A DNA stretch of 10,220 nucleotides from an uncultured Saprospiraceae bacterium. Its GTDB lineage: Bacteria; Bacteroidota; Bacteroidia; Chitinophagales; Saprospiraceae. Below, piece by piece: positions 228 to 8,256 of this stretch. Both the position numbers and the translations under genes were made by a program. The notes beneath the pieces were generated by a model. The model did not search any database. It was not told where the DNA came from and was given only the letters and a program-made list of their open reading frames with translations. The first letter of the stretch is position 1. Each line of letters starts with the position of its first letter. The stretch covers positions 1 through 10,220 of the forward strand of contig CALGLY010000682.1 of the NCBI GenBank assembly GCA_937959095.1, written 5' to 3'.

Positions 228-3200
228 ATGGCACAGCAAGGAAAAGGATTGTACGTTCCCTCTATGGAAAAGGACTCTTGCGGAGCAGGACTTATCGCCA
301 ATCTCAATGGCAATAAAACACATAAAGTCATAGAAGATGCCCTAGTGATGCTCCAAAATATGGAACATCGAGGCGCATGCGGTTGCGAACCCAATACAGG
401 CGATGGCGCGGGTATTTTGATACAAATGCCCCATGAGTTTTTCCAGAAGAAATCCCGTGAATTAGGTTTTGAATTACCCAACTTTGGAGAATACGGAGTA
501 GGAGTAGTTTTCTTCCCAGAAGAACGCAATTTGCGCCGCCAATGCCGTGTCCTCTTCAATGATTATGCGGATGATCTGGGTTTTGAAATACTGGGCTATC
601 GCAAAGTCCCCACCGACCACGAAGATTTAGGTGATTCGGCACTCGCTACCGAGCCACGTGTAGAACATGTCTTTGTGAAGCCTGTAGAGCCAATGGATAA
701 AAAAGCACTAGAGCGTCGTCTTTATATTCTACGAAAATTTGCCACGCACAATATCCATAAGACCTATCCGCAATCCGCAGCCTCTTTTTATTTGACCTCT
801 TTTTCCTACAAAACAATCGTTTATAAAGGACAATTGACGACCTATCAAGTCCGTCCTTATTTCCCTGATTTGCATGATGAATTGTGTAAATCTGCAATCG
901 CGCTGGTACATTCGCGCTTTTCTACCAATACGACACCGAAGTGGAAGCTCGCGCAGCCTTTCCGTTACATTGCGCACAATGGCGAAATCAACACCATACA
1001 AGGCAATCTAAATTGGTGGAAATCGAAAGAAGTACAATTTGCTTCGTCTTTGTTCTCAAAAGAAGAACTCGAAATGCTCATGCCTATATGCGGAACAGGG
1101 CATTCCGATTCAGGGCATTTTGATAATGTAGTAGAATTTTTGGTACTTAGTGGTCGTTCGCTACCGACTGCTTTGATGATGATGATACCAGAAGCTTGGC
1201 AGCACGATGAACAAATGGACGACAACAAACGCGCGTTCTATCAATACCACAAAAACCTGATGGAAGCTTGGGATGGACCAGCCTCTATGTGCTTCACGGA
1301 TGGTATTTTGGTCGGCGCGACTTTAGATAGAAATGGTTTGCGTCCTGCGCGCTACTGCCTCACCGATGATAATACGTTAATCGTCGCGTCCGAAGCAGGT
1401 GCGTTGCCGATAGACCAATCGAAAGTCGTACTAAAAGGACGCTTGCAACCAGGTAAAATGCTCATTGCTGATCTCGACGAACACCGCATCATTGGCGATG
1501 AAGAATTGAAGCAGGTTATTTGCAATCGACAACCATACCGCGAATGGCTGAATGAATATCAAATAAGTCTCAATGATCTCCCTGAAACAACAAGCCTAAA
1601 CGAAGAAGTGCTATTAGACGAAAAAACACTTTTTACTAAGCAACAAGCATTTGGCTACACCAAAGAAGATCTAAAATTCATCCTCGAACCGATGATAAAA
1701 GCAGGCAAAGACCCGCTCGGTTCTATGGGAACAGATACGCCGCTTGCCGTTTTGTCGCATCAGGCGCAGCACTTAGCGAATTACTTTAAGCAATTGTTCG
1801 CGCAAGTGACCAATCCTCCGATTGACCCGATTCGGGAGCGTTCGGTGATGTCGCTCTACGCGCTTTTGGGCGGTGCAAGAAATATATTGGTCGAAACGCC
1901 CGAACATTGTGAAGCAATTCATTTAGATACGCCTATTCTTAAAAATGAAGAAATAGCGAAGCTCAAATACCTCAATCATCCGCGTTTCAAATCGGGTATG
2001 ATTGATATGGTTTTCAAAGCCGACCATCAGAAAGGGCGACTGAGTGCAGCTATTGACCACATTTGCGCTATCGCGGAAGATTATGCTCGAAATGGCGTGA
2101 ATATCCTTATTCTTTCGGATCGAAATATCTCTAGTAATCTCGCTCCTATTCCATCTTTGATGGCTGTCGGCGCGATTCACCACCATCTCATTCGTAAAGG
2201 ACTTCGTTCTGAAACGTCCATTGTAGTAGAAGCAGGGGACATCCGCGAAACGCATCATTTTGCTACCCTTATAGGCTATGGTGCAAGTGCGATAAATCCC
2301 TATTTGACGTTCTCGACTTTGGCTTCTTTGCATAAAAAGAACCTCTTCGGAGAAGATATGTCGCTCGATAAAATTTTCCAGACTTATAATAAAGCGATTG
2401 GAAAAGGCATCTTGAAAATCATGTCTAAAATCGGCATTTCTACTTTGCAATCCTATCAAGGTGCGCAGATTTTCGAGGCTTTAGGTATTCATAGTGAAGT
2501 GGTAGAAAAGTGTTTCACTGGCACGGTTTCTCGTATACAAGGCGTAGGTTTCGATGGCATTGCAGCAGAAGCTTTGGCATGGCATAAACTTGCCTTTCCA
2601 GAAAAAGCTGCCGCTCGTCCACAGCTACAAGATGGCGGTATTTATCAATGGAAACGACGGGGAGAAGTGCATATTTTCAATCCGCAATCGGTGCATTTGC
2701 TTCAACATGCTGCCCGAAAAGCAGATTATACTGCCTATAAAAAATATGCGGCACTCATCAATGAACAAACCAAAAAAGCCTTTACGTTACGTGGCTTATT
2801 AGACTTCCGAAAAGCAGCTTCTATTTCTATAGATGAAGTAGAACCAATAGAAAATATCCTAAAACGATTCGTGACAGGCGCGATGTCTTTCGGCTCTATT
2901 TCGCATGAAGCACACTCGACTTTAGCGATTGCAATGAACCGCATAGGCGCGAAAAGCAATAGTGGCGAAGGCGGGGAAGATGAAATGCGCTTCGCTAAAA
3001 AAGAGAATGGCGATTGGGAACGCTCTGCTACTAAACAAGTTGCTTCGGGACGCTTCGGAGTCACCATAAATTACCTCACCAATGCCGAGGAACTCCAAAT
3101 AAAAATGGCACAAGGCGCGAAACCCGGAGAGGGCGGACAACTGCCAGGGCATAAAGTCGATGAGTGGATTGGGCGCGTCCGACACTCGACACCAGGAGTA

Positions 3201-4766
3201 GGTTTGATTTCGCCACCACCGCACCACGATATCTATTCCATCGAAGATTTAGCGCAGCTTATTTTTGATTTAAAAAATGCCAATCGCGCAGCACGTATAA
3301 ATGTAAAGCTGGTCTCCAAAGCAGGCGTGGGCATTATCGCATCGGGTGTAGCGAAAGCACATGCGGATGCTATCTTGATTTCGGGACACGATGGCGGAAC
3401 GGGTGCGTCGCCTTTGAGTTCTATTCGTCATGCAGGTTTGCCGTGGGAATTGGGCTTGGCAGAAACGCACCAAACCCTCGTAAAAAACAAACTCCGTGAT
3501 CGTGTACGTGTCCAAACCGATGGACAAATCCGTACAGGACGCGACCTAGCAATTGCCACGCTTTTGGGTGCAGAAGAATGGGGCGTAGCTACTGCCGCGC
3601 TTGTAGTGGAGGGCTGCATTATGATGCGTAAATGCCACATGAATACCTGTCCTGTCGGTATTGCTACACAAAATCCTGACCTACGGAAACGCTTCACCGC
3701 CAAGCCAGAACACATTATCAACTTTTTCACCTACTTAGCAGAAGACCTCCGCGAATACATGGCACAACTGGGCTTCCGTACCGTAGATGAAATGGTAGGA
3801 AAAGTGGAACTACTGCGCTTCAAGAAAGGCGTAAATTATTGGAAATACAAGCAACTTGATTTAAGTCCAATCCTTTATAAAGAACCCGTGGAAGAAGATG
3901 CAAAAGTCTATAAATCGGTGGAGCAAGATCATGGCTTGGAGCAGATTTTAGATTTAAGGCTTATCAATAAAGCGCGGCTTGCGCTGAATCATGGCAAGGG
4001 CATCAGTGCGGATTTTCCTATCCGAAATGTGGATAGAGCTACAGGCACGATGCTATCGAATGAAGTGGCGAAAAAATACGGCAGTCAAGGCTTACCCGAT
4101 GGTACAATTAAGTACCGCTTCCGAGGTTCAGCAGGACAAAGCTTCGGCGCATTTGGTGCGAAAGGTCTAGAATTCATCCTAGAAGGCGAATCGAATGACT
4201 ATTTCGGTAAAGGGCTTTCTGGTGCGCGGCTCGTCGTGCGTCCTGATCGTAACGCAAAATTTGAAGCACACGAAAATATCATCATCGGGAATGTCGCTTT
4301 CTATGGCGCGACTTCGGGCGAAGCCTTTATACGCGGTAAAGCAGGGGAACGCTTCGCTGTGCGGAATTCGGGCGTACATACGGTCATCGAAGGCATCGGC
4401 GATCATGGTTGTGAGTATATGACAGGTGGTCGCGTGGTTATCCTTGGTGAAACAGGTAAGAATTTCGCGGCAGGTATGAGTGGCGGCATTGCTTACGTCT
4501 ATAATCCGAAAGGCAAATTTGAAGAAAATTGTAATGCGGAAATGGTGGATTTAGACCCGCTTTCTAAAGCAGATGCAGAGGAATTAAAAACGCTTATTTC
4601 TAAACATTTTCAATATACGGATAGCAGCGTCGCGCTACATATTTTGGACAATTGGAAAACAGAAAGCAAGCATTTTACCAAAGTCATGCCGCGTGATTAT
4701 AAGCGGGTATTGCAGGAGCAGAAAGAAAAATCGAAGAAGGAAAAGGTCGCGAAGGTTGCCGCCTAG
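228..4766 (+). CDS. gltB: Glutamate synthase, large (alpha) subunit
   Basis: This is the large subunit of glutamate synthase (GOGAT). It hydrolyses glutamine, channels the ammonia inside the protein, and forms glutamate from 2-oxoglutarate using electrons passed on by GltD. At 1512 residues it is close to the usual bacterial length of about 1500. The N-terminal class II amidotransferase has its catalytic cysteine at Cys18 (SCGAG), implying a 17-residue propeptide that is cleaved off. HSRFSTNT (228-235) and HNGEINT (250-256) are typical active-site segments. A central domain follows, then the FMN-binding synthase domain starting near GAMSFGS (884-890). Cys1130, Cys1136 and Cys1141 (C-x5-C-x4-C) match the 3Fe-4S ligands. 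A GXGXG beta-helix domain starts around residue 1300. The tail is lysine-rich. The ATG at 228 fits the family N-terminus; no clear ribosome binding site is visible. No frameshift or missing key residue was seen. The enzyme acts in the cytoplasm. Confidence 0.98.
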   Translation: MAQQGKGLYVPSMEKDSCGAGLIANLNGNKTHKVIEDALVMLQNMEHRGACGCEPNTGDGAGILIQMPHEFFQKKSRELGFELPNFGEYGVGVVFFPEERNLRRQCRVLFNDYADDLGFEILGYRKVPTDHEDLGDSALATEPRVEHVFVKPVEPMDKKALERRLYILRKFATHNIHKTYPQSAASFYLTSFSYKTIVYKGQLTTYQVRPYFPDLHDELCKSAIALVHSRFSTNTTPKWKLAQPFRYIAHNGEINTIQGNLNWWKSKEVQFASSLFSKEELEMLMPICGTGHSDSGHFDNVVEFLVLSGRSLPTALMMMIPEAWQHDEQMDDNKRAFYQYHKNLMEAWDGPASMCFTDGILVGATLDRNGLRPARYCLTDDNTLIVASEAGALPIDQSKVVLKGRLQPGKMLIADLDEHRIIGDEELKQVICNRQPYREWLNEYQISLNDLPETTSLNEEVLLDEKTLFTKQQAFGYTKEDLKFILEPMIKAGKDPLGSMGTDTPLAVLSHQAQHLANYFKQLFAQVTNPPIDPIRERSVMSLYALLGGARNILVETPEHCEAIHLDTPILKNEEIAKLKYLNHPRFKSGMIDMVFKADHQKGRLSAAIDHICAIAEDYARNGVNILILSDRNISSNLAPIPSLMAVGAIHHHLIRKGLRSETSIVVEAGDIRETHHFATLIGYGASAINPYLTFSTLASLHKKNLFGEDMSLDKIFQTYNKAIGKGILKIMSKIGISTLQSYQGAQIFEALGIHSEVVEKCFTGTVSRIQGVGFDGIAAEALAWHKLAFPEKAAARPQLQDGGIYQWKRRGEVHIFNPQSVHLLQHAARKADYTAYKKYAALINEQTKKAFTLRGLLDFRKAASISIDEVEPIENILKRFVTGAMSFGSISHEAHSTLAIAMNRIGAKSNSGEGGEDEMRFAKKENGDWERSATKQVASGRFGVTINYLTNAEELQIKMAQGAKPGEGGQLPGHKVDEWIGRVRHSTPGVGLISPPPHHDIYSIEDLAQLIFDLKNANRAARINVKLVSKAGVGIIASGVAKAHADAILISGHDGGTGASPLSSIRHAGLPWELGLAETHQTLVKNKLRDRVRVQTDGQIRTGRDLAIATLLGAEEWGVATAALVVEGCIMMRKCHMNTCPVGIATQNPDLRKRFTAKPEHIINFFTYLAEDLREYMAQLGFRTVDEMVGKVELLRFKKGVNYWKYKQLDLSPILYKEPVEEDAKVYKSVEQDHGLEQILDLRLINKARLALNHGKGISADFPIRNVDRATGTMLSNEVAKKYGSQGLPDGTIKYRFRGSAGQSFGAFGAKGLEFILEGESNDYFGKGLSGARLVVRPDRNAKFEAHENIIIGNVAFYGATSGEAFIRGKAGERFAVRNSGVHTVIEGIGDHGCEYMTGGRVVILGETGKNFAAGMSGGIAYVYNPKGKFEENCNAEMVDLDPLSKADAEELKTLISKHFQYTDSSVALHILDNWKTESKHFTKVMPRDYKRVLQEQKEKSKKEKVAKVAA

Positions 4767-5894: not shown

Positions 5895-7364
5895 ATGGGC
5901 AATCCAAAAGGGTTTTTAACACATACGAGAGAATTACCATCCGCACGCGACCCGAAGGTCAGAGTGGGTGACTATAAGGAGATATACGAAGAATTTCCAG
6001 TAGAAAAAACGACCACGCAAGCCTCGCGCTGCATGGATTGTGGGATTCCCTTTTGCCATAATGGTTGCCCTTTAGGAAATATCATCCCAGAGTTCAATGA
6101 TGCCGTCTATGAAGAGAATTGGGAACTGGCTTTTGAGATTTTGAGTTCCACCAATAATTTCCCTGAATTCACGGGACGCATCTGTCCTGCGCCTTGCGAA
6201 TCGGCTTGTGTGTTGGGCATCAATCAGCCACCCGTAGCGATTGAGCATATCGAAAAAACGATAGCCGAGGTAGCTTATGAAAAAGGCTACATTCGTCCGA
6301 AACCACCGACGGTGCGAACGGGTAAAAAGGTGGCTGTAGTAGGTTCTGGTCCATCGGGTTTGGCGGCAGCCGCGCAGTTGAATAAAGCAGGTCATTTCGT
6401 GACCGTTTTTGAGCGCGACGATAGAGTAGGGGGCTTGCTCCGCTATGGCATTCCTGATTTTAAATTGGAAAAATGGGTCGTAGAGCGCAGAGTAGCAATG
6501 ATGGAAGCGGAAGGCGTACGCTTTCGCACGAGTACTAATATTGGTGTGGACATCAGCGCGAAGGAACTACAAGCAGAATTCGATGCAGTAGTGCTATGTG
6601 GTGGTTCTACCGTTCCGCGTGATTTACCGATTGATGGACGCAACTTGAAAGGCATTCACTTTGCCATGGACTTTTTGAAGCAAAATAATAAACGTGTAGC
6701 AGGTGACAACATCCCCAAAGCTGGCACATTAACTGCAAAAAATAAAAATGTCCTCGTCATAGGTGGCGGTGATACAGGCTCGGATTGTGTGGGAACATCC
6801 AACCGACATGGCGCGAAGAACGTCACGCAGATTGAACTCCTAGTCAAGCCACCTGCAAGCCGTTCGGAAGAGACACCTTGGCCGCTTTGGCCAATGCAAA
6901 TCCGCACTTCCTCTTCCCATGAAGAAGGCTGCGAACGGAAATGGGCAATTTTGACCAAAAAATTCATAGGCGATAAAAACGGCAAACTCAAAGCCGTAGA
7001 ACTCGTAGACATCGAATGGCAATTTGAAAAAGGAAAACGTTCTCGTTTCGTGGAAGTAGAAGGTTCTGCACGAGAAATTCCTTGCGAATTAGCATTGCTT
7101 GCAATTGGCTATTTACACCCACAGAAAAAAGGTATGTTGGAACAATTCGGATTGGAATTGGATGGACGCGGTAATGTACAAACAACCGACTACGCCACTT
7201 CCGTAGCAGGCATTTTTTCCGCAGGTGATATGCGACGCGGGCAATCGCTCGTGGTGTGGGCAATCAGCGAAGGGCGCGAGGCCGCAAAAGCGGTGGATAC
7301 CTACCTGATGGGTAGCACGGTGCTGGAAGGGAAGGATGATTCGCGGGTAGAAGTGACTGTCTGA
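5895..7364 (+). CDS. gltD: Glutamate synthase, small (beta) subunit
   Basis: This 489-residue protein is the NADPH-oxidising subunit of glutamate synthase. It takes electrons from NADPH through FAD and iron-sulphur clusters and passes them to GltB. The N-terminal domain carries the two cysteine groups expected for 4Fe-4S clusters: Cys46, Cys49, Cys54, Cys58 and Cys97, Cys101, Cys105. The FAD-binding Rossmann motif GSGPSG lies at 150-155, followed by the VFERDDRVGGLLRYGIP segment typical of the family. The NADPH-binding motif GGGDTG lies at 290-295. The second FAD motif GIFSAGDMRRGQSLVVWAI is near the C-terminus. Length and motifs are normal for GltD. The ATG at 5895 starts the conserved N-terminus (MGNPKGFLTH); no ribosome binding site is obvious. 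Homologous modules occur in other oxidoreductases such as dihydropyrimidine dehydrogenase, but gltB upstream settles the assignment. Confidence 0.97.
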   Translation: MGNPKGFLTHTRELPSARDPKVRVGDYKEIYEEFPVEKTTTQASRCMDCGIPFCHNGCPLGNIIPEFNDAVYEENWELAFEILSSTNNFPEFTGRICPAPCESACVLGINQPPVAIEHIEKTIAEVAYEKGYIRPKPPTVRTGKKVAVVGSGPSGLAAAAQLNKAGHFVTVFERDDRVGGLLRYGIPDFKLEKWVVERRVAMMEAEGVRFRTSTNIGVDISAKELQAEFDAVVLCGGSTVPRDLPIDGRNLKGIHFAMDFLKQNNKRVAGDNIPKAGTLTAKNKNVLVIGGGDTGSDCVGTSNRHGAKNVTQIELLVKPPASRSEETPWPLWPMQIRTSSSHEEGCERKWAILTKKFIGDKNGKLKAVELVDIEWQFEKGKRSRFVEVEGSAREIPCELALLAIGYLHPQKKGMLEQFGLELDGRGNVQTTDYATSVAGIFSAGDMRRGQSLVVWAISEGREAAKAVDTYLMGSTVLEGKDDSRVEVTV

Positions 7365-7490: not shown

Positions 7491-8256
7491 CTAGTTTGAC
7501 AACTCATTAATAGGATTAGGAAAAGTAGTTGTGAGCTCATAAAAGGTAATAATTTTCTCTGCTGCTTCTGTTGCCGTTAAATTGGTATTATGAACTTTAA
7601 ACATTGATTTATCCTGAAGATCACCTTCTTGGGAATTCATTCTATATTTTCCATCATGGTATAATAAGCGTTTTTCAGAGGCTTCCACATCTCTTTTAGA
7701 GGCTTTGTGGTGTAGTCTATTTTCGTGCTTGTTTCTTCGTAGTCGCTCTTCTAAATTACAGACTAATTCTACGAAACACACCTTGGGATTTTTTTTTTCA
7801 AAAATTGCTATTATTTCATCTATATAAGCTTCGTCTTCTGCTTCATTAAATGCCCATACCATCGTGAAAATCAGTCCTTCTAGCTTACTATTTGCAACTT
7901 CTTCAAAGATATTAAACCTGATTTTCTTGTCTAAATTTCTAAAGTTAGGCGTTCCAAAATCAAAGAATTGATTCACCAATTCTAAGTACACTGTAACAGA
8001 AATTTCTTTGCATTTATGACTGCTTTTTTTTCCAGTTTTCTTCGTTCCAAAATCGGGCTTCATAACCAGTTATGTTCCCAATTTTGCGCCTCGAATACTA
8101 AAAAAATAAGCTTAGTCAAAATACAAATAAACTTTTGTTACAGTGTACTAAGGACATATGATTATGAAATAACTTAAACCCTGTCAGTTTTTGCAATTCT
8201 TGCCCGACAGTCATTTTCCCTGATGCTGGTGGCCCGCAAACGATTATTAAATTCAT
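7491..8256 (-). pseudogene. P-loop ATPase/kinase-like gene interrupted by a palindromic MITE
   Basis: Read on the minus strand from ATG 8256-8254, the gene begins MNLIIVCGPPASGKMTVGQ, with a Walker A P-loop GPPASGK at residues 8-14, then KLFHNHMS, and then enters an inserted element at codon 36. Within the element the frame ends at TGA 8118-8116 after 46 codons. The conserved sequence resumes beyond the insert as LELVNQFFDFG. Removing 166 bases (element plus one TAA copy) joins HMS-L-ELVNQFF in frame and gives exactly 200 codons including the stop. The intact protein would resemble small AAA/shikimate-kinase-like ATPases starting GPPA-x-GK-x-T and containing HNH; their substrate is not established. 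The later part has charged helices (for example LEERLRRNKHENR) that fit a nucleotide-kinase lid. The frame from 8063 to 7491 remains open (190 residues) but lacks the P-loop and begins with about 26 element-derived residues, so a working ATPase is unlikely. Confidence 0.85.
7986..8148. mobile_element. 163-bp palindromic MITE with 25-bp terminal inverted repeats
   Basis: The terminal repeats 7986-8010 and 8124-8148 match at 22 of 25 positions when one is reverse-complemented; the outer 13 (GTACACTGTAACA) are identical. TAA flanks the element on both sides (7983-7985 and 8149-8151), consistent with a 3-bp target duplication; a TA duplication is an equivalent reading. The pairing continues inward to a centre at CATAAC-CA-GTTATG (8061-8074), with CAAAAT-x-GGG and CCC-x-ATTTTG further out (8048-8057, 8077-8086), so the whole element can fold back around its exact midpoint. 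It encodes no transposase and must have been moved by one elsewhere. A 3-bp TNA-like target is known for some IS5-family elements and a TA target for IS630, but the parent family cannot be decided here. It interrupts the P-loop gene, supplying a stop codon and a spurious start. Confidence 0.88.

Follow-up and report, generated by a model that had tools for sequence, protein, structure and literature searches.

The window, a stretch of 10,220 nucleotides analysed as a whole, is contig C682 of an uncultured Saprospiraceae genome (4.45 Mb, 857 contigs, 73.9% complete). Open reading frames (ORFs) at 228-4766 and 5895-7364 resemble what we take to be the large and small subunits of glutamate synthase, with two shorter ORFs between them. 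Beyond these lies a P-loop gene interrupted by a short fold-back element (Table 1).

Table 1. Features of the interrupted gene and its insertion, in window coordinates
Feature	Position	Strand	Basis
MITE without a transposase gene, fold-back along its full length (161 bp)	7987..8147	none	shared ends of differently flanked copies, fold z, copy number
Target duplication, left copy (CTAAG)	7982..7986	none	copy comparison and repeat check
Target duplication, right copy (CTAAG)	8148..8152	none	copy comparison and repeat check
Left terminal inverted repeat	7987..8012	+	22/26 bases match the right repeat
Right terminal inverted repeat	8122..8147	-	partner of the left repeat
P-loop gene, interrupted, 5' part (MNLIIVCGPPASGK...HNHMSL)	8148..8256	-	reconstruction; orthologues L325 and L326; Pfam on orthologues
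P-loop gene, interrupted, 3' part (ELVNQFF... to stop)	7491..7986	-	ORF list, orthologue search, reconstruction

The ends of the element, TACACTGTAACAG...CTTTTGTTACAGTGTA, were fixed by comparing copies with different flanks; among 30 loci of the host genome, 22 left and 20 right ends could be aligned, and they share these termini with nothing in common outside them. A sequence-only reading of the locus had placed TAA borders around an element of 163 bp; the shared ends shorten it to 161 bp (7987-8147), and the G and C formerly counted as its terminal bases belong, together with TAA, to a 5-bp target duplication. The terminal inverted repeats described there as 25 bp long (22/25 matching) are present, with a measured extent of the outer 26 bases. 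Its fold-back structure is borne out by inverted arms at 7982-8015 and 8119-8152 (34 nt each, 85% complementary) and by a predicted fold of 7980-8155 whose energy is -56.8 kcal/mol where shuffled sequences average -23.8 (z = -10.35; 0/200 shuffles as good); the two strands of this copy are only 74% alike. The element had also been said to have no coding capacity, and a transposase gene is indeed absent, but a start codon within it opens a 190-aa ORF (7491-8063), which lacks the P-loop. Short, bounded by terminal inverted repeats, and without a transposase gene, the element is a genuine MITE. A 12-bp direct repeat, CGTTCCAAAATC, is common to the host gene (7950-7961) and the element (8043-8054), and reflects either chance or local copying; its element half relies on one (element position 61) of the two positions at which the window copy deviates from the host-copy consensus.

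Deleting the 161 bp together with one CTAAG (166 bp) leaves an open frame of 199 residues and a stop, reading ...HNHMSLELVNQFF... Because the deletion is 166 bp under either reading of the borders, the frame reconstructed earlier was correct, and it matches the orthologues L325 and L326 at the junction. Among 23 other genomes searched, two have an uninterrupted orthologue, G006 (74% identical, ...HNHMSLELVNQFF...) and G025 (73%, ...YNHMSLELVNQFF...), with both junctions unbroken; none of the three same-genus genomes searched has a match to the gene. The empty site that had been proposed as a check thus accompanies the target duplication, with the intact genes coming from genera other than the host's. 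The interrupted gene encodes a P-loop protein; among Pfam families, AAA_18 falls just under its cut-off of 29.4 in both orthologues (27.6 and 28.9 bits), and KTI12 is narrowly above its cut-off of 22 in one (24.0) and under it in the other. Since the insertion parts the Walker A motif from the remainder of the protein, the gene is very likely inactive.

At least 40 distinct places in the host genome match a 169-bp query (the element plus one to four flanking bases per side), excluding self-matches of the palindrome to the opposite strand; this is a lower bound, with 40 of 105 first-look candidates scored, and three of these places match the element interior alone (C355, C415, and C191:6187). 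Eight complete 161-bp copies differ from one another by 2-14 bases, and three copies are 180 bp long. The copies share their ends and differ in their flanks, so the expectation of multiple copies at different target sites holds, and the element has been mobile. A DNA search with the element matched seven of 147 other genomes: G002, one of three other same-genus genomes, has full-length 161-bp copies (85-87% identical; five of 80 candidates scored), and the other six have partial matches of 29-121 bases. Of 298 Saprospiraceae genomes, 44 (host counted) contain the exact end pattern TACACTGTAANNNAARTT, with two or more matches in 27 and a single match in 17; the reversed control gave one match in each of five of the 298, so part of the 17 single-match genomes may be chance. 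Outside the family, 389 other Bacteroidota genomes (the phylum scan took in 395, 6 of them Saprospiraceae) gave five single matches against 10 for the control, which is chance level. The literature search, covering titles and abstract openings with most subscription papers outside it, returned no report of a Saprospiraceae MITE.

Several individual copies deserve description. Six of the seven copies compared in G162 differ by just 0-6 bases, the seventh having been compared in the opposite orientation, and four loci there (L234, L236, L237, and L238) hold near-identical 160-bp copies with 0-2 differences. At L144 (G040:C80, 1347-1478), a 127-bp MITE adjoins the end of a related IS630 element, with CTAG alone between them. 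The stretch TAGCTATGGCTATGCCCTCGAAAAAGAGCTTT, or part of it, is common to two contigs, in L055 from about 3060 and in the left flank of the L013 copy, and adjoins or sits within elements of the MITE family.

Many host copies lie at contig ends of this fragmented and incomplete assembly, and three (L003, L004, and L006) have mismatched flanks within 22-57 bases of one, which is what an assembly artefact might look like. The window copy, however, is some 2 kb away from the closer end of its contig and has an exact 5-bp duplication, its deletion yields the orthologue sequence at the junction, and the same structure is found in a genome of three contigs (G306) and in one Latescibacteria chromosome record, so that an artefact is a vanishingly small prospect.

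The length of the target duplication was read from 70 complete short elements (90-320 bp) picked, blind to the duplication, by their TACACTGTAA ends and repeat similarity: two or fewer mismatches per end and three or fewer in total, at least 15 of 24 repeat matches, 12 flank bases on both sides, and one element kept per set of identical flanks. An exact 5-bp duplication is present in 42 and a 4-bp duplication in eight; the remaining 20, which include L003, L004, and L006, have neither, and none of the 70 has an exact duplication of 2, 3, or 6-10 bp adjoining ends of the 161-bp type. The 42 5-bp duplications are mostly YTNAR: position 4 is A in all 42 and position 2 is T in 41, a pyrimidine (C or T) comes first in 36 and a purine (A or G) last in 41, and position 3 is free. 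Could the duplication nevertheless be TAA (or TNA, 3 bp), with an element of 163 bp whose outermost base varies? The window alone, with C-TAA-G on both sides, fits such a reading, and the 3-bp core matches in 48 of the 70 elements, its T and A near-invariant (41 and 42 of 42). Among those 48, however, the bases next to the core also agree between the two sides of the element in 45 and 44 (shuffled means 18 and 22, maxima 30 and 35 in 10,000 shuffles), and asymmetric sites are copied in full, CTTAT, CTAAA, and GTTAG among them. With outer bases that differ from copy to copy but agree on the two sides of an element, the duplication is 5 bp, and we regard the 3-bp core as a highly improbable alternative. 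A 154-bp element in G186 (L105), which has an internal run of N, carries CTAG (4 bp) on either side.

A transposase gene with the same ends had been suggested as confirmation, and elements of this type are found in other Saprospiraceae. One of these, L117 (in G073), is 1197 bp long, ends in TACATTG/TACACTG with CTTAT on each side, and has two ORFs, a 145-aa helix-turn-helix protein and a 212-aa DDE_3 protein. The partner is an IS630-family element: on NF033545 (NCBIfam IS630, cut-off 100), the second ORF of L117 scores 113 bits, L143 scores 137, and L155 scores 146.9; the first ORF of L117 by itself scores 62 bits, under the cut-off. Relatives of the L143 protein at E <= 1e-20 were found in 26 of the 298 family genomes searched, and TACACTGTAA-like ends lie on both sides of seven loci of 1185-1218 bp (L154, L155, L157, L160, L161, L162, and L164, the last being L117). 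The flanks of these seven match exactly over 5 bp in L157 and L164 and over 4 bp in L160, with neither in the other four. Transposases at least 48% identical to L143 are present in 13 genomes, with paired ends in seven, a single end in G040, and no TACACTGTAA-type end pair in G310, G196, G250, G044, and G352; seven of the 13 are among the 44 genomes with the exact end pattern. Eight elements of the partner group have two overlapping ORFs that meet where seven to nine A stand in a row. Six of them have the second ORF in the -1 frame, which makes a programmed frameshift likely in these six; L117 and L160 have it in the +1 frame and may be broken.

The host assembly itself yielded no transposase of the partner clade: its sole DDE_3 match (L153) is without these ends, and host loci with single ends and other interiors (L055, L058, L059, L064, and L065) gave no long transposase-bearing element (ORFs checked in L054, L055, and L058). 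The PF01609 transposases of the host (four matches, L089-L092) were considered as partners and rejected, none of them having these ends. A DDE_3 search of seven MITE-bearing genomes gave no match in five, including G306 and G162 (70 contigs, 100% complete), and the small differences among the G162 copies point to recent movement there without a visible enzyme. A repeated element of 1.2 kb may simply have dropped out of a fragmented assembly; with only 3 contigs in G306, a missed element is unlikely, and that genome has probably lost the enzyme or receives it from outside. Among solved structures, no sequence relative was found at E 0.1. Judging from these comparisons of sequence, we put at about 0.9 the probability that the 161-bp element is a non-autonomous DNA transposon (MITE) moved, now or formerly, by an IS630-family transposase that recognises TACACTGTAA ends.

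When named genomes were searched with the transposase alignment, 113 relatives were found and 80 loci kept; ends were called similar with three or fewer mismatches in 10 per end and four in all. Similar ends are present in Bacteroidota, Chloroflexota, Acidobacteriota, Cyanobacteriota, and Latescibacterota. One Latescibacteria chromosome has 29 loci, 26 of them with both ends, and among these 26 the duplication is an exact 5 bp in 21 and 2 bp in one; the 21 5-bp duplications comprise 14 different sequences, with position 4 always A. Both ends are present in 30 of the other 51 loci (5 bp in eight, 4 bp in four, neither in 18). The end pair is absent in 24 of the 80 loci (3/29 in Latescibacteria and 21/51 in the others), and these counts overlap with those for the Saprospiraceae loci, some of which are apparently repeated (e.g., L244 and L143). 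Insertion at TA with a 2-bp TA duplication, as in the studied IS630 elements, is thus not the pattern here: 5 bp prevails in 21 of the 26 Latescibacteria loci and in 42 of the 70 short elements. No 5-bp IS630 duplication was reported in the titles and abstract openings covered by the literature search.

Other groups of the family have 4-bp flanks. CTAG stands on either side of eight IS630 loci that have other ends (L167, L173, L174, L175, L177, L178, L179, and L182), and a more distant IS630 relative in G185 has an exact 4-bp duplication in 10/10 copies fetched (CTAG in seven and CTAC/GTAG, a single site read on either strand, in three). The outer bases match across the element in the three informative copies from G185, which makes the duplication 4 bp and not TA. 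In a transposase tree of 65 rows, built from tblastn pieces of at least 150 residues with duplication labels given by hand, a fork with 99/97 support, at which there is a long-branch warning, unites 15 rows: every one of the six CTAG rows, seven rows without a label, and two 5-bp rows (L180 and L181, ends TAGTAAG), with none that has TACACTG ends. The position of L180 and L181 within this fork suggests that 5 bp may have arisen more than once. Treating the duplication labels as single clades was tried and rejected, the 5-bp label needing 11 changes on the tree, no fewer than when shuffled (mean 10.3); this poor clustering is largely due to the many copies that share the same ends but, their duplications having decayed, carry another label.

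The fold-back is the other persistent feature. A length of 160 or 161 bp is found in 41 of the 70 short elements; 69 elements were grouped into 29 sets, and 14 elements from 13 genomes, hand-picked from the ~160-bp class, were aligned over their full length. Their consensus fold has 47 pairs, 27 of them with changes on both sides that preserve pairing, and 107 paired-change cells compare with 35.2 in shuffled alignments (0/500 as high) and 19-36 with slid partners; because the consensus structure was drawn from this very alignment, the percentage paired is inflated, and the contrast with shuffles may be somewhat inflated too. The fold-back is kept by paired changes across the 14 elements.

What maintains it is a separate question. 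The long RNA hairpin proposed by the sequence-only reading is supported as a predicted fold, and the element could be kept as a functional RNA, a transcribed hairpin acting on neighbouring mRNAs in the manner proposed for RNase III-cut repeats of Neisseria. The fold is very stable and conserved by paired changes over 14 elements, one alignment strand folds better than the other (-36.1 versus -21.6 kcal/mol), and G-U cells exceed A-C cells 49 to 26 over the union of both strands' pairs, with the orientation fixed by homology. By structure, the G-U and A-C counts are 49 and 17 for the plus strand, 25 and 24 for the minus strand, 25 and 15 for pairs common to both strands, and 31 and 23 for the interior of the union. 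However, 21 of the 49 G-U cells come from three columns, of which two belong to the terminal repeats, and the counts for the common and interior pairs also weigh against an RNA role. An earlier count, in which the orientation was chosen by the count itself, was biased and set aside. Rfam returned no family at its gathering score, with eight weak rows, seven of them microRNA precursors, and a best score of 28.8 bits against 140; moreover, the window element breaks a gene. The counts give no clear sign of selection on RNA over DNA, so symmetry of the DNA or template-switch repair would do, and we consider a functional RNA unlikely.

Template switching during replication could keep the fold-back without selection by correcting one arm from the other. 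Quasi-palindrome correction is an established process in bacteria, and the lack of a clear strand bias agrees with it. Against it, the window copy shows just 74% agreement between its two strands, yet the eight complete host copies differ by no more than 2-14 of 161 bases; we treat such correction as possible, at less than even odds.

Returning to the movement of the MITE by an IS630-family transposase, we envisage that the enzyme would bind both TACACTGTAA ends and excise the element. Two transposase subunits, each on one YT half-site, would recognise a target of inverted half-sites, YT and AR, usually with one base between them; joining at the outer edges of the half-sites, 5 bp apart or 4 bp apart when the spacer is absent, and gap repair would then produce the YTNAR duplication. 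In the window, the insertion entered CTAAG in the minus-strand P-loop gene of about 200 codons. The fold-back may have been retained despite much sequence change because a symmetric, compact element is perhaps a better transposition substrate; alternatively, one arm is perhaps mended from the other by template switching. More broadly, we think it probable that a multi-phylum branch of bacterial IS630 elements has departed from the TA rule of the IS630/Tc1/mariner group, with YT/AR half-sites and a flexible spacer giving 5 bp (YTNAR) or 4 bp (YTAR), that a distant group in the same host family duplicates 4 bp (CTAG, CTAC/GTAG), and that the branch gave rise in Saprospiraceae to a lineage of ~160-bp MITEs whose fold-back is maintained by paired changes.

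If such a 5- or 4-bp branch exists, a single transposase family can alter the distance between its joining points, a change that the related 4-bp and 5-bp groups open to testing. The MITE family also offers a natural series of ~160-bp fold-back substrates, and may account for many breaks between contigs, and for one or more disrupted genes, in the host genome.

Parallels are found among described elements. One is RUP of Streptococcus pneumoniae, described in the relevant section of one account as a 107-bp non-autonomous repeat whose ends match IS630-Spn1, its proposed mover (PMC2229807); like the Saprospiraceae MITE, it is short, non-autonomous, and matched at its ends by an IS630-family element. 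By that description, RUP is reported at TA-containing targets, whereas the Saprospiraceae element duplicates 5 bp, mostly YTNAR. The same account gives the Correia/NEMIS elements of Neisseria as MITEs of 107 and 155 bp, similar in length to ours, with stem-loop transcripts for which RNase III processing is proposed (PMC2229807); the Saprospiraceae hairpin RNA, by contrast, is a predicted fold.

IS630, ISY100, and the MITE partner all have IS630-family transposases with helix-turn-helix and DDE domains. ISY100 duplicates TA, in 34 of 39 in vitro products according to the excerpted results (PMC2170065), whereas the partner group duplicates 5 bp, sometimes 4 bp, and has two ORFs overlapping at a run of A. 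Duplications other than TA are also found in other branches of the same superfamily: the sections concerned describe TAA or TAAA for Fot and Fot-like elements (PMC7386202) and TATA for most Sailor elements (PMC8533490). A duplication of 5 bp does not appear for pogo/Fot or Sailor in those sections (PMC7386202, PMC8533490), and in the Saprospiraceae MITE position 3 of the duplication is free.
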